From assembly GCA_002737665.1 (NCBI GenBank), contig NSIF01000015.1:1-36510 (forward strand): 36,510 nt of DNA, given 5' to 3'. This document shows, in pieces, positions 7,235 to 21,067 of this stretch. A program made the position numbers and the translations under genes. Every line of letters begins with the position of its first letter. The first letter of the stretch is position 1. Source of the DNA: Flavobacteriales bacterium (lineage in GTDB: Bacteria > Bacteroidota > Bacteroidia > Palsa-965). The notes beneath the pieces were generated by a model. That model was not told the DNA's origin. It saw only the letters and a program-made list of their open reading frames with translations, and did not search any database.

Positions 7235-10200
7235 ATGCGCAAGAAAATTACATCCTATTTTGTTTTTTTTATTGTCCTTTCAGTTTGCCCCTTTTTAGCA
7301 ATTGGTCAGCCTACAACAGTATGCCCTAATAATGCAGGTGTAGACCAAACGCTTTGTGCACCAAACTGCGCCACACTAACAGGGACTTTTGTGAATGTCT
7401 ACGCAACAAATACTTATGCCATTTCTACAATACCATATGCTCCCGATCCCTACAATGTAGGGACCTCCGTTTTTTTACAGGATGACCAATGGTCACAAAT
7501 AATTAATCTCCCTTTTTCGTTTTGTTTTTATGGAAATAATTATACGACTTGTATGATTGGTTCAAATGGAATGCTGTCATTTAGTGTAAACGGTGCGGGG
7601 GGATATTGCCAATGGCCTATTGGAGCACCAGTACCAACTAATCAAAATCCTATGAACACGGTAATGGGACCTTGGCAAGATTTATATCCACCTGCAGGTG
7701 GAACAATAAAATACACAACCTACGGAACAACACCATGCAGAAGATTCGTTGTCAGCTGGTACCAACTACCTATGTATGCTTGCACATCTACATTGTGTAC
7801 CCAACAAATTACAATATACGAAACCACAAATATTATTGATAATTTTATTCAAACGAAACCCACTTGTGGTTGGAATAGTGGCAGAGCAATTGAGGCTATT
7901 CACAATATAAATGGCACAGCCGCAATGGTTGTTGCTGGAAGGAATTCCCCAACAATTTGGACAACAACAAACGATGGGAAAAGATATTCACCAACTGGAA
8001 CAAGCACATGTACGCTTGCTTGGTACCAAGGAGTAAATTTACTCTCAAGTTCTGCTTCAGTAGTGGTGTGCCCAACAACTACTACCACTTACACATTTCA
8101 AGCAATTTATACAAATTGTAACAATGTACCAGTAACCTTAAGCGACCAAGTTGTTGTCAATGTAAACAGCCTACCGACAACAGCAGGTCCCGATCAAAAT
8201 ATCTGTATTGGTGCATGCGTCAATCTTACAGGGGTAGCTGCTGGAGCTACAAGCTTCGCTTGGACTACATTACCCGGAAATACAAATGTTGGAAATACAG
8301 CAACCATCAATGTTTGCCCTGTAACAACAACAACCTATGTTGTCACATCCGTAGGACCGACTTGCACAGGTGCCGACACGGTAACTATTAACGTTACAGC
8401 AGCAATTATCTTAAGTGCATCACAAACTAATATCAATTGTTTTGGCCAATGTATTGGCTCTGCAACTGTTGTTGCTACAGGAGGTAATGGTACTTTTACT
8501 TATTTATGGACTCCCTCGGGTGGAACCGCAGCTACAGCATCTAATCTCTGTGCGGGAACATATACTTGTACGGTAACGTCGGGGCCTGCAAATTGTACTG
8601 CAACACAAACTTTTACCATTACCCAACCTCTAGCATTTACTGCAACACAAACGCAAGTAAATATTTTGTGTAGTAACGCCTGCACTGGAACAGCAACAGT
8701 TATACCTTCGGGCGGCGTGGGACCTTACTCCTACTTGTGGAGTCCTTCAGGTGGAACTAATGCCAGTGCAACGCTGCTCTGCGCAGGTACATATACGTGT
8801 ACAATTACAGATGCAAACAATTGTGTATTGACAAAAATTTTTACATTTATTAATCCAATAATTATTACTGCAACACAATCCCAAATAAACTTAATGTGTA
8901 ACGCTATCTGCAACGGCAGTGCTACAGTTGTTGCAGCAGGGGGAACTGGAATTTACACTTACTCCTGGTCGCCTTCAGGCGGAAATAATGCAACAGCAAC
9001 AAACTTGTGTGCTGGAAACTATACCTGTACAATTACAGACTCCAACGGTTGTTCAAGAACCCAATCATTTATTATAACACAACCACCAGCACTTACTGCA
9101 ACACAATCACAAATAAATTTAATTTGCAACGCCGTCTGCAACGGCAGTGCTTCCGTCGTGGTTTCAGGAGGCACAGGACCTTACACATATGCATGGACAC
9201 CTTCGGGGGGAAACGCTGCGGCGGCCTCTAATTTGTGTGCAGGGAATTACACCTGCATAATTACTGATGCTAATAATTGTGCTTTAATAAAAACCTTTAT
9301 TATTACGCAACCGCCTGCATTAACGGCAACGCAAACACAAATTAATATAACATGTAATTCTAATTGTAATGGAAGCGCAACGGCAATCGTTTCAGGAGGA
9401 ACAGGTCCTTATACCTATACTTGGGCACCCTCAGGAGGAAACACAGCTACGGCATCGAGCTTGTGTGCTGGAACTTATACATGCACCATCACAGATGCTA
9501 ATAGTTGCTCTATAACACAATCATTTAATATTACACAACCAAATACTCTTGTAGCAACCCAATCGCAAATCAATTTAACATGCAACGCTGTTTGTAGTGG
9601 AAGTGCTACTGTTGTCGCTACTGGGGGAACAGGAGTTTATACCTATGCGTGGGCACCTTCAGGTGGAAACGCAGCCACGGCGTCAAATTTATGTGCAGGA
9701 ACTTATACTTGTACAATTACAGATGCAAATAATTGCTTTACCACACAATCATTTATCATAACACAACCTCCCGTATTAACCGCTACCCAATTGCATATTA
9801 ATTTAATTTGTAATTCAATTTGCAATGGAATTGCAACCGTATTTGCTTCAGGGGGAACAGGGATTTATACTTATGCCTGGTCGCCATCAGGAGGAAATGC
9901 AGCCACAGCATCTAATTTATGTATGGGAACATACACCTGCACAATTACGGATGCCAATAATTGTTCTATAACACAATCATTCAATATCACACAACCTCCC
10001 GTTTTAACCGCCACTCAATCGCATGTCAATTTAATTTGTAATTCAATTTGTAATGGGACTGCAACCGTATTCGCCAGTGGAGGGACAGGAATTTATACTT
10101 ATGCGTGGTTACCTTCGGGAGGAAACGCTGCAACAGCTGCGAATTTGTGTGCCGGAACATATACTTGTACCATTACCGACGCTAATAACTGCTCTTTAAC

Positions 10201-12400
10201 TCAATCTTTTAACATTACACAGCCACCCGCTTTAACCGCTACCCAATCGCAAGTCAATTTACTTTGTAACGCTGTTTGCATAGGAACAGCAACTGTAGTT
10301 GTAAGCGGTGGAACTGGAATATACAACTATACTTGGACACCTTCTGGAGGAAATGCTGCAACTGCTATCAATTTATGTATCGGAACATATACTTGCACCA
10401 TTACAGATGCCAACAATTGTTCCCTAACACAAACATTTAATATCACACAACCTTCTTCACTAACAGCTACACAATCACAACTAAATGTGACGTGTAATTC
10501 AGTTTGTAACGCAAGCGCAACGGTCAATGCTTCAGGAGGCACAGGGGTTTATACTTATTTATGGGCACCTTCAGGTGGTAACACAGCCAATGCAACAAAT
10601 CTATGTTCAGGAACATATACTTGTACCATTACAGATGCAAGCAATTGTTCAATAACACAATCTTTTAACATTACACAGCCATCCGTTCTAACTGCCGCTC
10701 AAACCCAAGTAAATTTAATTTGCAACGCAATCTGTAATGGAAGTGCTACCGTTGCCGCTATTGGAGGCACAGGAGTTTATACTTACAATTGGATGCCGTC
10801 GGGAGGCAACAACGCAACAGCAATAAATTTATGTGCCGGAACATACACGTGCACCATCACAGATGCTAACAGTTGTTCTATAACACAATCATTCAACATT
10901 ACCCAACCTTCCGTTTTAACTGCTACACAATCACAGGTTGATTTACTTTGCAATTCAATTTGCAATGGAAGTGCATCCGTTATCGCTAGCGGAGGAACAG
11001 GCGTTTATTCATATACCTGGGCTCCATCAGGAGGAAATACGGCAACAGCCACAAATTTATGTGTTGGGACATATACTTGCACGATTACAGATGCTAACAA
11101 CTGTACAATAACTCAATCGTTTAACATTACACAGCCGCCTGCACTAACGGCTACAGCAACACAAGTAAATGTAACCTGCAATGCGCTGTGCAATGCGAGC
11201 GCTACTGTATTGGCTATTGGAGGTACGGGGATTTGCAGTTACGCTTGGTCTCCAGCTGGAGGGAATACTGCAACAGCTTCTAATTTATGTGCTGGCAATT
11301 ACACTTGTACAATTACAGATGCCAACAATTGTTTTATTACACAACCATTTATTATTACACAACCAACCTTACTCACAATTACCGCAAGCGCACTACCCTC
11401 TTTTTCCTGCACTGGCGATACGGTTCAATTAAGCGCTAACGCAGTTGGTGGAACACCCAACCTAAATGTTGTTTGGATGCCTGGAACATTGATTGGCTCA
11501 TCACAAAATATTATACCTACAACCTCTTCCACCTATACAGCAACAGTTACAGATGCTAACGGTTGCATCGCGTCCACAACAATAAGTGTTTCCGTATATC
11601 CGACTCCAACACCGCAACTTACCGCTAGTGTAACTTCGGGTTGTTCGCCTGTTTGCGTCAACTTCAGCGATTCTTCATTCATTGCCCCTCCTTCAATAAT
11701 TAATTCATGGTTTTGGGATTTTGGAGATGGAAACACATCTACTTTACAAAATCCATCTCATTGCTATAATACAGCAGGAATCTACACAGTGTACCTAGAG
11801 GTGAAATCTGCAAATGGCTGTATAAATTCAGTCACCTTTACAAACTATATAAATGTTTTTCAAATTCCTGTAGCTGACTTCACAGCTTCGCCACAACCCA
11901 CAACAATACTTGAACCTACAATTTATTTTACCGATAACTCCGCAGGTGCAGCTTTTTGGAGTTGGAGTTTTGGCGATTTGAACAACTCAACTGCTACAAT
12001 TCAAAACCCGTCATTTTTATATCCAATTGAAAATTGCTACGACGTTACACTATCAGTTCAAAGCATTAATGGATGCACGGACTCCGCCTCAATGGAAGTG
12101 TGTATAAGACCAGACGCTATTTTATACTTACCAAATGCATTTACTCCTAACCAAGATGGTTTAAACGAACTATTTCTTCCTTCCTATATCGGCATTGATC
12201 CAGATCGATTTGAAATGTGGATTTTTGACAGGTGGGGAAATCTAATTTATTTTACAGACGACCTGTTGAGAGGATGGGACGGACGCGTTCAAGGTAAACC
12301 AGAAATTTGTCCCATAGGAACTTATGTTTGGAAAATAAATTGCAGGGGTTTACAAGACCAATATTTTCAAAAAATAGGTCGTGTTTCTCTTATAAAATAA
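7235..12400 (+). CDS. Giant Cys-rich SprB-repeat surface protein with gliding-motility-type C-terminal domain
   Basis: 1721 residues. Signal peptide at 1-25 (MRKKITSYFVFFIVLSVCPF, cleavage near LAIGQ). Residues about 26-265 form a Cys-rich head, including GSNGMLSF, MGPWQDLYPPAGGTIKY and RRFVVSWYQLPMYACTSTLC, shared with the gene at 14324. One Ig-like module follows (about 310-392). Residues 393-1379 are 13 consecutive SprB-type repeats of 75-76 residues, each ending in TITDANNC...ITQP or a close variant. Then come one more Ig-like module, two PKD-like domains (WFWDFGDGNTS; FWSWSFGDLNNS), and from about 1629 the type-B T9SS sorting domain (YLPNAFTPNQDGLNELF ... FDRWGNLIY ... GWDGRVQG). By family it is a cell-surface filament or adhesin exported by T9SS, like SprB of gliding relatives. 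Whether it serves motility, adhesion or a matrix is inference. Confidence 0.92.
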   Translation: MRKKITSYFVFFIVLSVCPFLAIGQPTTVCPNNAGVDQTLCAPNCATLTGTFVNVYATNTYAISTIPYAPDPYNVGTSVFLQDDQWSQIINLPFSFCFYGNNYTTCMIGSNGMLSFSVNGAGGYCQWPIGAPVPTNQNPMNTVMGPWQDLYPPAGGTIKYTTYGTTPCRRFVVSWYQLPMYACTSTLCTQQITIYETTNIIDNFIQTKPTCGWNSGRAIEAIHNINGTAAMVVAGRNSPTIWTTTNDGKRYSPTGTSTCTLAWYQGVNLLSSSASVVVCPTTTTTYTFQAIYTNCNNVPVTLSDQVVVNVNSLPTTAGPDQNICIGACVNLTGVAAGATSFAWTTLPGNTNVGNTATINVCPVTTTTYVVTSVGPTCTGADTVTINVTAAIILSASQTNINCFGQCIGSATVVATGGNGTFTYLWTPSGGTAATASNLCAGTYTCTVTSGPANCTATQTFTITQPLAFTATQTQVNILCSNACTGTATVIPSGGVGPYSYLWSPSGGTNASATLLCAGTYTCTITDANNCVLTKIFTFINPIIITATQSQINLMCNAICNGSATVVAAGGTGIYTYSWSPSGGNNATATNLCAGNYTCTITDSNGCSRTQSFIITQPPALTATQSQINLICNAVCNGSASVVVSGGTGPYTYAWTPSGGNAAAASNLCAGNYTCIITDANNCALIKTFIITQPPALTATQTQINITCNSNCNGSATAIVSGGTGPYTYTWAPSGGNTATASSLCAGTYTCTITDANSCSITQSFNITQPNTLVATQSQINLTCNAVCSGSATVVATGGTGVYTYAWAPSGGNAATASNLCAGTYTCTITDANNCFTTQSFIITQPPVLTATQLHINLICNSICNGIATVFASGGTGIYTYAWSPSGGNAATASNLCMGTYTCTITDANNCSITQSFNITQPPVLTATQSHVNLICNSICNGTATVFASGGTGIYTYAWLPSGGNAATAANLCAGTYTCTITDANNCSLTQSFNITQPPALTATQSQVNLLCNAVCIGTATVVVSGGTGIYNYTWTPSGGNAATAINLCIGTYTCTITDANNCSLTQTFNITQPSSLTATQSQLNVTCNSVCNASATVNASGGTGVYTYLWAPSGGNTANATNLCSGTYTCTITDASNCSITQSFNITQPSVLTAAQTQVNLICNAICNGSATVAAIGGTGVYTYNWMPSGGNNATAINLCAGTYTCTITDANSCSITQSFNITQPSVLTATQSQVDLLCNSICNGSASVIASGGTGVYSYTWAPSGGNTATATNLCVGTYTCTITDANNCTITQSFNITQPPALTATATQVNVTCNALCNASATVLAIGGTGICSYAWSPAGGNTATASNLCAGNYTCTITDANNCFITQPFIITQPTLLTITASALPSFSCTGDTVQLSANAVGGTPNLNVVWMPGTLIGSSQNIIPTTSSTYTATVTDANGCIASTTISVSVYPTPTPQLTASVTSGCSPVCVNFSDSSFIAPPSIINSWFWDFGDGNTSTLQNPSHCYNTAGIYTVYLEVKSANGCINSVTFTNYINVFQIPVADFTASPQPTTILEPTIYFTDNSAGAAFWSWSFGDLNNSTATIQNPSFLYPIENCYDVTLSVQSINGCTDSASMEVCIRPDAILYLPNAFTPNQDGLNELFLPSYIGIDPDRFEMWIFDRWGNLIYFTDDLLRGWDGRVQGKPEICPIGTYVWKINCRGLQDQYFQKIGRVSLIK
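8411..11371 (+). repeat. 13 tandem 225-228 bp units coding SprB-type repeats
   Basis: Unit starts fall at 8411 (75 codons), then every 228 bases: 8636, 8864, 9092, 9320, 9548, 9776, 10004, 10232, 10460, 10688, 10916 and 11144, ending at 11371. The consensus protein unit runs LTATQSQINLICNAICNGSA, then TV-x3-GGTGxYTYxWxPSGGNxATA, then NLCAGTYTCTITDANNC, then SxTQSFNITQP. Units keep exact length and protein sequence but differ at many third codon positions, so the array is old and under protein-level selection rather than a fresh slippage product. Confidence 0.95.
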
Positions 12401-14323: not shown

Positions 14324-17300
14324 ATGAAATATAATTTACACGTTTTACTTTTTGTTTTTTCATTGTCTTTCTCATTTTTGGCAATTGGTCAATCACCAAC
14401 AGTTTGCCCAATAAATGCAGGGGCAGATCAAACAATATGTGTACCTAACTGTGCAACCCTTACAGGAACATTTGTTCCTACTAATCAAACGAATACATAT
14501 TTACTTTCAACTATTCCATACGCGCCAGATCCTTTCAATGTCGGATCTAGCTTGTTTTTAAGTGATGACCAGTGGTCACAAGTAATTCCGCTCCCATTTA
14601 CATTCTGTTTTTATGGAAATCCATATAACTCCTGCTTGATTGGCTCAAACGGGATGGTATCGTTTTCTCTCACAGGCGCAGGAGGATATTGCCAATGGCC
14701 TATTAGCACACCTGTACCAAGTGGTGCAAATCCAATGAACACCATAATGGGGCCTTGGCAAGATTTATATCCCCCAGCAGGAGGAACAATAAAATACTCT
14801 ACTTATGGCACAGCACCGTGCAGAAGGTTCGTAGTGAGTTGGAACCAGTTGCCCATGTACGCATGTACTAGCACTTTGTGTACCCAACAAGTTACTATTT
14901 ATGAAACTACAAACATCATTGATAATTATATTCAAACAAAACCTACGTGTGGTTGGAACGGCGGAAGAGCTATTGAGGCAATTCACAATATAAATGGAAC
15001 ACTTGCCACTGTTGTACCTGGTAGAAACTCACCATCAGTTTGGACAACAATAAATGACGGAAAACGATACACTCCCAATGGTGCAAGCACATGCGTAGTG
15101 GGTTGGTATTTGGGACCTGTTCTCATAACAAATAATGCAACAACCGTTGTTTGCCCAACCGCAACCACAACCTATACTTTTCAAGCAACTTATACCAATT
15201 GTAACTCAACAACTGTAATTGTTTCAGACCCAATGACAGTAAACGTCAGTGCCTTGGTAACATCTGCTGGGGTTAATCAAAATATTTGTGTTGGAGGTTG
15301 TGCAAATTTAAACTGTGTCGCTGTTGGCGCAACGAGTTACAGCTGGGTTAGTATTCCTGGAAACATAAACGTTGGAAATACAGCTGCCATAACTGTGTGT
15401 CCACTTGTAACAACAACTTATGTAGTAACAGCAAACAGTAATTCTTGCGCTGGATTGGACACTGTTGTTGTAAACGTTACTGCAATGACTACTGCATCAG
15501 CTGGTGCAGACGATTCTATTTGTTCAGGCGCCTGCGCAACTTTACAAGGAAGTGGTGGCGTATCCTATGTTTGGGCTCCCGCAGCTTCCATTGTTGGCTC
15601 TTCAACTATTGCAAATCCACAAGCTTGTCCCTTAACGACTACCACCTTTACAGTTACCGTTACAGATGCAAACGGATGTATTGGAACTGACCAAGTGACC
15701 GTTTTTGTTGCGCCTTCGTTGTTGTCTTTAAACATAACCCCTACTAGCGCAACTTGTTTTGGATATTGTAATGGATCGGCAACGTCCTCACCTGTAGGCG
15801 GCTTCCCCCCTTACAATTATTTGTGGTCAAATGCACAAACGACAGCAACAGGAACTAATTTGTGTGCTGGCCAAATTACCTTAACTGTAACAGATGCTAT
15901 TGGTTGTACGTCCACAGCATCTGTAATCTTAACACAACCTACAGCAATTGCAATTAATGCTACTTTAATAACAACAGCAAACTGTGGACAAAACGACGGA
16001 ACTGTAACCATTGCAATTGCAGGCGGAACTCCAGGTCCAGGATACACAATTCTATGGCCTTCTAGCGGAAACAATGGATTAACCGAAATGAATTTACCTC
16101 CGGGGCAAGTTTGTGTTTATGTCTATGATGCAAACGGTTGTGGTGACACGCTTTGTATGACCGTTCCCAATACACCTGGCGCAACTGTGAATGTCAATAA
16201 TTTTACAAATGTAACTTGTAACGGTGCCTGCGATGGAACTGCAACAGCTATAGCAATTGGAGGCACGGGGCCCTATAGTTATAGTTGGAACACTGCGCCT
16301 CCTCAGCTAACTATTACTGCAACAAATCTTTGTCCAGGAAATTATTTAGTTACGATGATTGATGCTAATGGATGTTCTGATACAACTAACGTGTTAATTA
16401 TTGAACCTCCTGTATTAACGAATTTGGCTAGTGGAACAATTACAATTTGTATTGGACAAACTGCTAATTTATCCTCAGTAGCATCAGGCGGAACTCCTAT
16501 TTATAATTATAGCTGGACAGACGGAATAACAAATTGGTCCACTGCAAATATTGCAGTAAGTCCTATTGTAACAACGACCTATACTGTTTCTCTGACCGAT
16601 GCAAATGGCTGTGTCGCGATTAACCAAACCATTACCGTAACTGTTAATCCACCATTAAATGTGGTAGCCATGGCTGGTATTTCAGTCTGCGCAAATTCTA
16701 ATGTTAATATCACCGCATTAGCTAACGGTGGAAACGGAAACATAACCTACACCTGGCAACCTGGAAATCTTATCGGTGCAAGTATTAATACCCCAATTGC
16801 AGTAAGCACAACTTATACTGTTACAGCGACCGATGGTTGCGGTACTCCATCATCTTCTGACACCGTTACTGTTATGGTAAATCCATTACCAATAGTAACT
16901 ATTGTTGCTGCAACAGCAACTTCAGGTTGTCAACCGCTTTGCGTAACATTTACAAACAATACACCAAACACCAATTCAATTGCATGGACATTTGGAAATA
17001 ACTTAGGCAACTCAATTTCTCCAAATCCTACATTTTGTTTCTCCACATTTGGAATTTACGATGTAAGTGCTACTGTAACTGATAATTTAGGTTGCGTCGG
17101 TACAACTACATTGACAAATTACATTACTGTTTGGCCATTGCCGAATGCTCTCTTTTCTGCTACACCACAACCAGCAACTGTATTGGATAATTGGATAACT
17201 TTTACTGATTTATCATCAGGGGCAAATGCATGGGCTTGGAGTTTTGGTGCCGATTTATATGCTTCGATATTACAAAATCCGATGTATGCATTCCAAGATT

Positions 17301-17671
17301 CAGGAGTGTTTGCAGTGCAGTTATTAGTAACCAATCAATATGGTTGTCAAGACAGTATTACAATGCCAATTCTCATTAAACCAGACTACGCGCTTTACAT
17401 CCCAAATGCTTTTACACCGAACGGAGATAACATTAACGATTTGTTTTTCCCTTTAGGAATGGGTGTAAGTTTAGATAAATATATGTTGCACATTTTTGAC
17501 CGATGGGGCAATATAATTTTCAACACCGATAATACAACTGTTGGATGGGATGGAACTGTACAAGGTACTGGCCGACTTTGTCAACTAGATACTTATGTAT
17601 ATAAAATTACTGCGATGGATCCTGATGGTGCACTAAAAGTTTACATCGGACAAATTAATTTAATACGATAG
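14324..17671 (+). CDS. Modular Cys-rich surface protein (SprB-like, Ig-like and PKD domains) with gliding-motility-type C-terminus
   Basis: 1115 residues. A signal peptide ends near LAIGQ. The head (about 25-265) is a close paralogue of that in the 7235 gene: GSNGMVSF, MGPWQDLYPPAGGTIKY, RRFVVSWNQLPMYACTSTLC and AIEAIHNINGT are nearly unchanged. Next are two Ig-like Cys modules (SAGVNQNICVGGC; SAGADDSICSGAC) and three SprB-like modules (about 466-541, 542-619, 620-696), the middle one absent from the 17681 paralogue. Then come two more Ig-like modules, two PKD-like domains and, from about 1023, the type-B T9SS sorting domain (YIPNAFTPNGDNINDLFFP ... FDRWGNIIFN ... GWDGTVQG). It is predicted to be a T9SS-exported surface or adhesion protein. 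It is followed after 9 bases by its paralogue, so the two are probably one transcript. Confidence 0.9.
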   Translation: MKYNLHVLLFVFSLSFSFLAIGQSPTVCPINAGADQTICVPNCATLTGTFVPTNQTNTYLLSTIPYAPDPFNVGSSLFLSDDQWSQVIPLPFTFCFYGNPYNSCLIGSNGMVSFSLTGAGGYCQWPISTPVPSGANPMNTIMGPWQDLYPPAGGTIKYSTYGTAPCRRFVVSWNQLPMYACTSTLCTQQVTIYETTNIIDNYIQTKPTCGWNGGRAIEAIHNINGTLATVVPGRNSPSVWTTINDGKRYTPNGASTCVVGWYLGPVLITNNATTVVCPTATTTYTFQATYTNCNSTTVIVSDPMTVNVSALVTSAGVNQNICVGGCANLNCVAVGATSYSWVSIPGNINVGNTAAITVCPLVTTTYVVTANSNSCAGLDTVVVNVTAMTTASAGADDSICSGACATLQGSGGVSYVWAPAASIVGSSTIANPQACPLTTTTFTVTVTDANGCIGTDQVTVFVAPSLLSLNITPTSATCFGYCNGSATSSPVGGFPPYNYLWSNAQTTATGTNLCAGQITLTVTDAIGCTSTASVILTQPTAIAINATLITTANCGQNDGTVTIAIAGGTPGPGYTILWPSSGNNGLTEMNLPPGQVCVYVYDANGCGDTLCMTVPNTPGATVNVNNFTNVTCNGACDGTATAIAIGGTGPYSYSWNTAPPQLTITATNLCPGNYLVTMIDANGCSDTTNVLIIEPPVLTNLASGTITICIGQTANLSSVASGGTPIYNYSWTDGITNWSTANIAVSPIVTTTYTVSLTDANGCVAINQTITVTVNPPLNVVAMAGISVCANSNVNITALANGGNGNITYTWQPGNLIGASINTPIAVSTTYTVTATDGCGTPSSSDTVTVMVNPLPIVTIVAATATSGCQPLCVTFTNNTPNTNSIAWTFGNNLGNSISPNPTFCFSTFGIYDVSATVTDNLGCVGTTTLTNYITVWPLPNALFSATPQPATVLDNWITFTDLSSGANAWAWSFGADLYASILQNPMYAFQDSGVFAVQLLVTNQYGCQDSITMPILIKPDYALYIPNAFTPNGDNINDLFFPLGMGVSLDKYMLHIFDRWGNIIFNTDNTTVGWDGTVQGTGRLCQLDTYVYKITAMDPDGALKVYIGQINLIR
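16413..17671 (+). repeat. long direct repeat, copy 1 (homogenised 3' half)
   Basis: This stretch aligns without gaps to 19713-20971 at a constant offset of 3,300 bases. By eye, 16441-17160 differs from 19741-20460 at about 23 of 720 positions. Identity drops after about 17130 and before about 16413. Confidence 0.9.
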
Positions 17672-17731
17672 TAAACAATAATGTATACAAATCTGACATT
17701 TTTAAAACATCCGTTTTATATCATGCGAAGG

Positions 17732-20700
17732 ATGAAAACTTTTCATTTTGTGTTTATTGTACTATTGAGCTATTTTCTTTCGAGTACTAATGCCTTTGGT
17801 CAATCAACTACAATAAATTTCAATTATACAGGAAGCGCACAAATTTGGGTTGTACCCAATTGTGTTTATAATATTACGGTAGTTGTAAAGGGAGCAAAAG
17901 GTGGTGGCTCAGCAGGCGGCCTCGGCGCAAACGTTACTGCTATTTTAGCGGTAACTCCAGGACAAATTTTACAAATAAATGTTGGTGGAACCGGTACAGT
18001 GCCTGCTCCTGGATGGAATGGAGGTGGTAACGGAACAACTGCCAATCCTGGTTATTCTGGTGGTTTCGGCGGTGGAGGAGCTTCAGATATTAGAGTTGCA
18101 CCAAATGCATTAGCCAACAGACTTATAGTAGGTGCTGGCGGTGGTGGAACTGGTGGTGGAAATACAAATGGAATTGGCGGGTCTGGCGGTTGCGCGAATG
18201 GGGTAAACGGATCTTCTCCATTTGGACAAGGAGGCGGTGGAGGAACTCAATTTTCAGGAGGAACTCCTGGACCACCTTGGATTCCAAGTGGTAGCCCAGG
18301 AACTGCAGGTTCATTGGGATTAGGAGGCAATGGAGGTAGTGACCCTTGTTACAACAGAGGCCCAGGCGCTGGTGGTGGTGGTGGAAAATATGGTGGTGGC
18401 GGTGGGGGAAGCGATTGTTTTGGTTCAGGACCATTAGGCGGCGGTGGTGGTGGTGGTGGATCTAGTCTTATTCCTACGGGTGGCACTTGTTTACAAGGCA
18501 ATAATAATGGACTCGGTTTTGTGAGTATTACGTACCTTTTAACCAGCCCCCCAACAATTGCAACTAATACTGGGCCATATTGCGCAGGACAAACCATACA
18601 ATTGAATTCCGCAAATGGGGGTAACTTATATAATTGGACTGGTCCAAATAGTTACGTTCAAAACAATACTCAAAACCCAACTTTACCTTCTGCCACTCCT
18701 GCACAAAGTGGAATTTATACTGTTACAGTAACCTATCCAGGTGGTTGTGTGTCAACTGCAACTACTTCTGTAATCGTCAATCCACTTCCTGTTACTTCAG
18801 CAGGTCCAAACCTAAATATTTGCCTTGGCAATTGCACTAATTTAACTTGTGTTGTTGCTAATCCTACGAGTTATTCATGGGTAAGTATTCCTGGAAATAT
18901 TAACGTTGGTAATTCCTCAACAATAAATGTTTGCCCAATAGTTACAACCACCTATGTGGTAACTGCAACCGCACTTGCTTGTTCCAATAGTGATACAATT
19001 GTTGTAATCGTAACTTCAATGACAACCGCAGCGGCTGGGGTAGATGATTCAGTATGTGCTGGTGCGTGCACAACCTTACAAGGAAGTGGAGGTGTTTCAT
19101 ATTCATGGGCACCAGCAGTTGCAATTGTAGGTTCTTCAACTATTGCTAACCCGCAAGCTTGCCCAATAGTTACTACCATTTACACCGTAACGGTCACAGA
19201 TGCAAATGGCTGTATTGGCACAGATCAAGTAACTGTTTTTGTGGCACCTTCGCTGTTGTCTTTAAACATAACTACTATTGACCCAACTTGTTTTGGATAT
19301 TGCAATGGATCAGCAACAGCTGCTGCTGCAGGTGGCTTTCCTCCCTACACCTATTTGTGGTCAAATGCACAAACAACACCAACTGGAACAAATTTATGTG
19401 CTGGTCCTCTCAGCTTAACAATAACGGATGCCATAGGATGCACTTCCACAGTAGCCTTAATTATAACACAACCAGCTACTGCAACGATAAGCATAATCAA
19501 TTCTATAAACACAACCTGCAATGGAATTTGCGATGGTTCAGCCACGGCATTAGCTGCGGGCGGAACGGGTCCTTATAGTTATAGTTGGAACACCACGCCT
19601 GCTCAGCTAACTATTAATGCGACAAATCTTTGTGCTGGAAATTATATAATCACAATGATTGATTCAAATGGATGTGTCGATACAAGTATGATTGCAATAA
19701 CTCAACCTGCTCTATTAACGAATTTGGCGAGTGGAACAACTACAATTTGTATTGGACAAACTGCTAATTTATCCTCAGTAGCATCAGGCGGAACTCCTAT
19801 TTACAATTATAGCTGGACAGACGGAATTACAAATTGGTCCACTGCAAATATTGCAGTTAGTCCTATTGTAACAACGACCTATACTGTTTCTCTGACCGAT
19901 GCAAATGGCTGTGTCGCGATTAACCAAACCATTACCGTAACTGTTAATCCCCCATTAAATGTGGTAGCCATGGCCGGTATTTCAGTCTGCGCAAATTCTA
20001 ATATTAATATCACAGCATTAGCTAACGGTGGAAACGGAAACATAACCTACACCTGGCAACCTGGAAATCTTATCGGTGCAAGTATTAATATCCCAATTGC
20101 AGTAAGCACAACTTATACTGTTACAGTAACAGATGGTTGTGGTACTCCATCATCTTCTGACACCGTTACTGTTATGGTAAATCCATTGCCAATAGTAACT
20201 ATTGTTGCTGCAACAGCAACTTCAGGATGTCAACCGCTTTGCGTAACATTTACAAACAATACACCAAACACTAATTCAATTGCTTGGACATTTGGAAATA
20301 ACTTAGGCAACTCAACTTCTCCAAATCCTACATTTTGTTTCTCCACATTTGGAATTTACGATGTAAGTGCTACTGTAACTGATAATTTAGGTTGCGTTGG
20401 TACAACAACATTGACAAATTACATTACAATTTGGCCATTGCCCAATGCGCTCTTTTCTGCTTCACCACAACCAACAACTATATTGGAAAATTCGGTAACA
20501 TTTACTGATCTTTCAACAGGAGCAAATGCATGGGCATGGAGTTTTGGTTCTGATTTATATGCATCGGCAATACAGAACCCAGTGTATGCATTCCAAGATA
20601 CAGGAGTGTTTGCAGTGCAATTACTAGTAACAAACCAATATGGTTGTCAAGATAGTATTACAATGCCAATTGAAATTAAACTAGATTACGCTCTTTATAT

Positions 20701-20971
20701 ACCAAATGCTTTTACTCCTAACGGCGATTACATTAACGATGTATTTTTCCCTTTAGGAATGGGTGTGAGTCTAGAAAAATTTAAGTTTTACATATTTGAC
20801 CGTTGGGGCAATATAATTTTCAACACCGATAATACAACTGTTGGATGGGATGGAACGGTGCAAGGAACTGGTCAGCTTTGTCAACTAGATACTTATGTAT
20901 ATAAAATAACTGCGATGGATCCTGATGGCGCATTAAAAGTTTACATCGGAGAAATTAATCTAATACGATAA
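17732..20971 (+). CDS. Modular surface protein with glycine-rich head and gliding-motility-type C-terminus
   Basis: The frame is open from an ATG at 17681, but the ATG at 17732 gives a proper signal peptide (MKTFHFVFIVLLSYFLSSTN, then AFGQS) and is preferred (1079 residues); ATG 17723 is also possible. The head is a glycine-rich domain of the PF12810 type: FNYTGSAQIWVVPNC and ITVVVKGAKGGG, then about 150 residues with many Gly runs (about 18050-18470). It contains no trace of the head seen in the 14324 protein. After it come Ig-like Cys modules, two SprB-like modules, two Ig-like and two PKD-like domains, and the same type-B T9SS sorting domain ending VYIGEINLIR. The 3' half is almost identical DNA to the upstream paralogue. 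Predicted T9SS cargo; what it binds is unknown. Confidence 0.88.
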   Translation: MKTFHFVFIVLLSYFLSSTNAFGQSTTINFNYTGSAQIWVVPNCVYNITVVVKGAKGGGSAGGLGANVTAILAVTPGQILQINVGGTGTVPAPGWNGGGNGTTANPGYSGGFGGGGASDIRVAPNALANRLIVGAGGGGTGGGNTNGIGGSGGCANGVNGSSPFGQGGGGGTQFSGGTPGPPWIPSGSPGTAGSLGLGGNGGSDPCYNRGPGAGGGGGKYGGGGGGSDCFGSGPLGGGGGGGGSSLIPTGGTCLQGNNNGLGFVSITYLLTSPPTIATNTGPYCAGQTIQLNSANGGNLYNWTGPNSYVQNNTQNPTLPSATPAQSGIYTVTVTYPGGCVSTATTSVIVNPLPVTSAGPNLNICLGNCTNLTCVVANPTSYSWVSIPGNINVGNSSTINVCPIVTTTYVVTATALACSNSDTIVVIVTSMTTAAAGVDDSVCAGACTTLQGSGGVSYSWAPAVAIVGSSTIANPQACPIVTTIYTVTVTDANGCIGTDQVTVFVAPSLLSLNITTIDPTCFGYCNGSATAAAAGGFPPYTYLWSNAQTTPTGTNLCAGPLSLTITDAIGCTSTVALIITQPATATISIINSINTTCNGICDGSATALAAGGTGPYSYSWNTTPAQLTINATNLCAGNYIITMIDSNGCVDTSMIAITQPALLTNLASGTTTICIGQTANLSSVASGGTPIYNYSWTDGITNWSTANIAVSPIVTTTYTVSLTDANGCVAINQTITVTVNPPLNVVAMAGISVCANSNINITALANGGNGNITYTWQPGNLIGASINIPIAVSTTYTVTVTDGCGTPSSSDTVTVMVNPLPIVTIVAATATSGCQPLCVTFTNNTPNTNSIAWTFGNNLGNSTSPNPTFCFSTFGIYDVSATVTDNLGCVGTTTLTNYITIWPLPNALFSASPQPTTILENSVTFTDLSTGANAWAWSFGSDLYASAIQNPVYAFQDTGVFAVQLLVTNQYGCQDSITMPIEIKLDYALYIPNAFTPNGDYINDVFFPLGMGVSLEKFKFYIFDRWGNIIFNTDNTTVGWDGTVQGTGQLCQLDTYVYKITAMDPDGALKVYIGEINLIR
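19713..20971 (+). repeat. long direct repeat, copy 2 (homogenised 3' half)
   Basis: Partner of 16413-17671. It codes for the Ig-like, PKD-like and sorting domains of the second paralogue. Confidence 0.9.
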
Positions 20972-21013
20972 CTAAATCTAGTTTTCTGAATTAGTGAAAC
21001 ATTAATAAAAAAT

Positions 21014-21044
21014 AAAAAGCCGTTTCTTGAAGAAACGGCTTTTT
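21014..21044 (+). terminator. strong bidirectional rho-independent terminator
   Basis: AAAAAGCCGTTTC (21014-21026), loop TTGAA, GAAACGGCTTTTT (21032-21044): a perfect 13-bp stem with a T run on either strand. It lies between the convergent surface-protein cluster and gyrB and should end both transcripts. Confidence 0.93.
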
Positions 21045-21067
21045 ATTTTTTATTAAAACTATTAGCA

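Follow-up and report, generated by a model that had tools for sequence, protein, structure and literature searches.

How do two neighbouring genes for modular surface proteins come to have unrelated heads, strongly diverged upstream modules and, further 3′, a stretch in which they are almost the same? This question is raised by P1 and P2, which lie side by side in the window analysed here, the whole of a 36,510-nucleotide contig (C7) from the draft genome of a single Flavobacteriales strain (1.65 Mb in 60 contigs, 66.6% complete). The relevant features are the following.

7235–12400, + strand: P3, a type B protein with SprB repeats; its head is the sister of the P1 head
14324–17671, + strand: P1, a secreted modular protein of 1115 aa; it carries SprB modules, PKD modules and a type B sorting domain of the T9SS (CHU_C)
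15257–15958, + strand: P1 modules with a counterpart at 18791–19489 in P2 (offset 3534; old divergence, dS 1.0–1.5)
15960–16183, + strand: module of about 78 aa in P1, placed by alignment and offset change, edges approximate
16274–17095, + strand: tract of recent homogenisation, P1 copy, delimited by BIC segmentation (visible core 16437 to about 17157)
17096–17668, + strand: older, partly homogenised 3′ part of P1, with the last PKD and the type B sorting domain
17681–20971, + strand: P2, a secreted modular protein, 1096 aa counted from the first ATG, with P1-type modules and a type B tail
17732–18770, + strand: foreign, glycine-rich head of P2 (ALK_LTK_GRD, by domain scan)
19574–20395, + strand: tract of recent homogenisation, P2 copy (offset 3300)
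20396–20968, + strand: P2 counterpart of the older 3′ part (offset 3300)
21007–21051: hairpin with T runs 3′ of P2, strand not assigned (read on the + strand by eye)

Both proteins end in a C-terminal type B sorting domain (TIGR04131/PF13585; 53.1 bits in P1 and 52.4 bits in P2, cut-off 35), and each contains two stretches of SprB repeats. Judged by eye, 17732 is a more likely start for P2 than the first ATG at 17681. The module of about 78 aa is found in P1 and in its full-length orthologues and is missing from P2, which explains why the offset between the two genes changes from 3534 to 3300. We considered and rejected a classification of either protein as the gliding adhesin SprB: the repeats are present, but there is no adjoining sprF, since none of the seven matches to PF11751 (PorP/SprF family) in this genome falls on contig C7.

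As an earlier note on this DNA had described, the 3′ parts of the genes (16413–17671 and 19713–20971) align at offset 3300 without a gap, differing at 88 of 1259 positions (93.0% identity). The extent of 1.26 kb given there was nevertheless too short, as the full gap-free match covers 1440 bp at 91%; homology ends at the stop codon. Within the core at 16437–17156 we counted 24 differences in 720 bases, against the 23 or so estimated before, and the longest exact run common to both genes is 92 bp. Sliding 60-bp windows, a check that the note itself had proposed, placed the highest identity in the core with lower values on both flanks: 78–87% in 16260–16439, 92–100% in 16440–17159, 83–90% in 17160–17579 and 91–95% in 17580–17671. 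A fall in identity toward the sorting domain had also been claimed. A dip does follow the core, but it lies before the domain, and identity over the last ~90 bp rises again. The description of the upstream modules as more diverged and the heads as unrelated held in full, with 15300–15959 of P1 matching P2 at offset 3534 and ~60–87% identity, and dS at 1.0–1.5.

Silent sites allow these segments to be compared in depth. Moving from 5′ to 3′ along the pair, the upstream modules give a P1–P2 dS (Nei-Gojobori) of 1.49 and 1.00. The value falls to 0.76 immediately ahead of the core and to 0.10 within it (18.0 differences over 187.8 silent sites), then climbs to 0.42 behind the core and stands at 0.29 over the final 50 codons. 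For the core of P1 against its orthologues in relatives, dS is 1.84 in G002 and beyond the range of the correction, that is saturated, in G001 and G003. Because dS between the pair is 0.10 exactly where dS to the orthologues is at or near saturation, the core is a tract of true recency and not a slowly evolving region. When the P1–P2 distance is divided by the distance to orthologues, the core ratio is 0.053 (95% interval 0.033–0.075). Upstream the ratio is 0.49, immediately ahead of the core 0.45 and immediately behind it 0.265; a fourth ratio used for comparison is 0.133. The proposal of local homogenisation between tandem paralogues is borne out by these ratios.

In bootstraps over all positions the core ratio reached the upstream, preceding or following ratio in 0/1000 replicates each, and with third positions alone it reached the following ratio in 1/1000. 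Silent differences in the core and in the following segment (18/188 against 26/83) differ with a Fisher p of 2e-5; set against the last 150 bp, the core stands out weakly (Fisher p 0.025; 154/1000 replicates at third positions). Among 466 silent polymorphic codons, BIC preferred three segments (514.6) to two (520.8) or one (596.1), with 64/163 codons identical in 15257–16273, 158/175 in 16274–17095 and 91/128 in 17096–17668. These boundaries lie close to where the last SprB module stops (aa 657) and where the PKD at aa 863–929 stops, which may be a coincidence. When the same codons were shuffled, the observed fragment score was reached in 0/20000 permutations at mismatch penalties of 1, 2, 3 and 5, which excludes chance as the source of the tract. 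For the 3300-offset part alone the corresponding counts were 0, 1, 0 and 0 of 20000. The GENECONV-like check that had been suggested was significant where mismatches were allowed at a penalty; in its strict form, a mismatch-free run, it was reached by 53/20000 shuffles over the whole match but was not significant within the 3300-offset tail (1388/20000).

Relatives show on which side of this pair the novelty lies. A full-length P1 orthologue in the same gene order is present in three genomes of the genus (G001, G002, G003) and in one of another genus (G011), the order being LDH (L037, L038, L039), an SprB-type gene, an SBBP gene, P1 and gyrB (L036, L037, L039, L073). A P1-type core was not found at E 1e-50 in G004, which is 72% complete, or in G006. 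P2 was not found in any relative searched. A search with the P2 modules across seven genomes of the genus matched only P1-type genes, once each in G001, G002 and G003, with no matches at E 1e-40 in the other three relatives. Where P2 would be, relatives hold collagen-repeat or similar genes, collagen repeats being present in both that were scanned (G002, G003). Related genes of 755–1025 aa occupy this place at L036:9149–14654, L037:14883–17390 and L038:14810–17323. In G005 a deletion has left the P1 tail alone, fused to the SprB-type gene in a different reading frame (L039:8600–8900); there the SprB-type gene ends abruptly within its own sorting domain, and the SBBP gene and the P1 head are gone.

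P1 and P2 came out as sisters in each of the five segment trees, with support of 100 except for 67–75 in the short part before the core, indicating that the duplication postdates the divergence from the sampled relatives. The pair groups together in converted and unconverted segments alike, and the relatives lack P2, so conversion and plain duplication would both give grouping by genome here. It is the uneven depth across segments, and not tree grouping, that is the evidence for conversion. The lesson extends to other loci: when a duplicate is lineage-specific, genome-wise grouping alone is no proof of gene conversion.

P2 is a chimera, in which a glycine-rich head is joined to a lineage-specific copy of the P1 modules and type B tail, and its segments are of different age. 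Apart from itself, the P2 head finds matches of at most 52% identity, in relatives within the genus. In those relatives, all seven scanned proteins with ALK_LTK_GRD-type heads (the complete-frame proteins with a glycine-rich head from 13 loci examined) end in a type A domain, PF18962.

The explanation that we favour, and regard as probable, is a lineage-specific chimeric copy followed by local gene conversion between P1 and P2. After the split from every sampled relative, everything in P1 from the first module onward, stop codon included, would have been copied beside P1 and joined to the glycine-rich head of a different T9SS family, giving rise to P2. Later, at least one non-reciprocal exchange, in either direction, would have overwritten ~0.7–0.8 kb in one gene, in the interval that is bounded in both genes by the last SprB module and the last PKD. 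The simplest mechanism would be gene conversion through ordinary homologous recombination, the two direct repeats lying 3.3 kb from each other. Conversion as the mechanism and the number of rounds are both inferred from the profile, and diverged alleles imported from an unsampled strain onto the flanks of the core would leave the same pattern. Since the 3′ end is of intermediate age, it may have been exchanged earlier or stem from another event. The likeness of the core could have been kept by chance or by selection. Exchange had been called ongoing, an impression that 24 differences, a dS of 0.10 and the lack of any exact run above 92 bp do not sustain; the last transfer was not very recent.

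The most serious competitor is a recent duplication: the 3′ part of P2 would be a young copy of P1 along its whole length, and diverged alleles of another strain or species would afterwards have displaced the stretches flanking the core in one of the two genes. Allelic exchange of this kind is reported in PMC5266723 for T9SS surface proteins of Porphyromonas gingivalis, and the flanks are less diverged between P1 and P2 than from every sampled relative, as might be expected of a close unsampled donor. However, each flank would need an import of its own, with the imports stopping around one and the same internal stretch, and no outside donor was found in 12 family genomes (core query) or 7 genus genomes (P2-module query). 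A DNA search of the strain's own genome returned five matches, of which only the two copies in the window were strong. We consider this account unlikely.

Two other accounts are far less probable. A mixing of reads from both genes or from two strains during assembly is worth considering in an incomplete draft of 60 contigs, but exact shared runs do not exceed 92 bp, differences are spread across the core, both frames are open, and graded ages are unlike a collapse, making an artefact of this sort very improbable. A single duplication with uneven rates, the core merely being under stronger constraint, can point to a dN/dS of ~0.1, which does mark the core as constrained. Silent divergence drops tenfold there too, however, and P1 and P2 are as diverged from their orthologues in the core (0.64) as upstream (0.66). 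We rejected uneven constraint for the core because silent sites drop likewise, and we find it scarcely credible; the comparison with the upstream part refutes it, that with the last 150 bp being a weaker test.

Returning to the chimeric copy with conversion, its arrangement suggests how P2 might be used. P2 would present its glycine-rich head on the surface through the type B sorting route of P1. It is probably transcribed from the P1 promoter, as no terminator-like site or comparable hairpin is listed on the + strand in the gap between the genes; by eye, a hairpin stands 3′ of the P1 orthologues in L037, L038 and L073. PMC9143113 describes binding of the PorP-like protein SprF by the last 368 aa of Flavobacterium johnsoniae SprB, and the homogenised part together with the sorting domain (aa 650–1115 of P1) covers the length of that segment. 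With seven PorP/SprF matches in the genome and none on contig C7, P1 and P2 may possibly share one PorP-like partner. It is an unlikely proposition that Bacteroidota use tail copying to transfer surface domains between T9SS routes, from type A to type B, with homogenisation kept by selection so that both proteins fit one partner. A head can change its sorting class by gaining the tail of another gene, and the locus illustrates, segment by segment, how Bacteroidota build up their large repertoires of T9SS surface proteins, with modules copied between neighbours.

Remodelling of P1 and P2 is clear but ordinary, and of a known kind. The gingipain and haemagglutinin adhesins of P. gingivalis are type A cargo. 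Their adhesin domains are a likeness from the same phylum, also on the T9SS; those comparisons are between strains, whereas P1 and P2 are type B and adjacent in one genome. Domain rearrangement and gene conversion are discussed for T9SS surface proteins of P. gingivalis in PMC5266723. Similarly, Leptospira ligA and ligB, as outlined in PMC7821625, are tandem surface genes with one near-identical and one unique part, for which gene conversion is invoked. Their shared part is 5′ and their unique part 3′, whereas P1 and P2 share an internal 3′ part and differ in their heads, and the near-identical stretch is longer in Leptospira and includes the upstream region (PMC7821625). They also belong to another phylum and use another secretion route. 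In Helicobacter pylori, BabA and BabB are outer-membrane Hop proteins with antigenic variation, whereas no switching is seen for P1 and P2. Intragenomic recombination between the paralogous adhesin genes babA and babB is described in PMC3444412. A limited search of titles and abstracts found no publication on gene conversion between type B T9SS genes.

Tail sharing of this kind did not emerge as a rule in the genus. In 32 loci, which were picked for their richness in such genes and are not a random sample, only 1/36 pairs of type B genes lying in one locus matched at ≥80% over ≥120 bp (one pair is counted twice, L065 overlapping L037), and we therefore rejected tail homogenisation as a general feature. 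Among all same-strand ORF pairs within a locus (31 loci), 11/564 had a match of ≥75% over ≥100 bp, one of them using an ORF that overlaps another. Only P1–P2 reached 85%, followed by L083 at 75–82%, L036 at 80% over 122 bp and L040 at 78%. In G006, L083:6260–17453 holds four related genes in a tandem array, and three or more of them have glycine-rich heads. Silent divergence between its members is patchy, mostly 0.22–0.60, and certain pairs have their minimum at the 3′ end. The array is a possible second case of conversion, which we did not call because orthologues are lacking.

Nor do heads simply evolve apart above a common stalk. The earlier note had read the pair as the same stalk carrying separately evolving heads; as a rule this fails on the 1/36 count above and on the heads themselves. 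In DNA and protein trees of nine sequences, the heads of P1 (14324–15760) and P3 (7235–8660) are sisters to the exclusion of the P1-orthologue heads, with support of 99 in both, which indicates that heads too have been copied inside the locus. P1 accordingly has its head in common with one neighbour, P3, and its tail with the other, P2. Silent divergence between the P1 and P3 heads is 0.59–0.70 per window, so that this copying event is old. In G002, the head of the P1 orthologue clusters with another head encoded at a different site of the same genome (G002:C7:108656), with support of 88 and 75 (L036:5677–6633 and L027:1477–2385).
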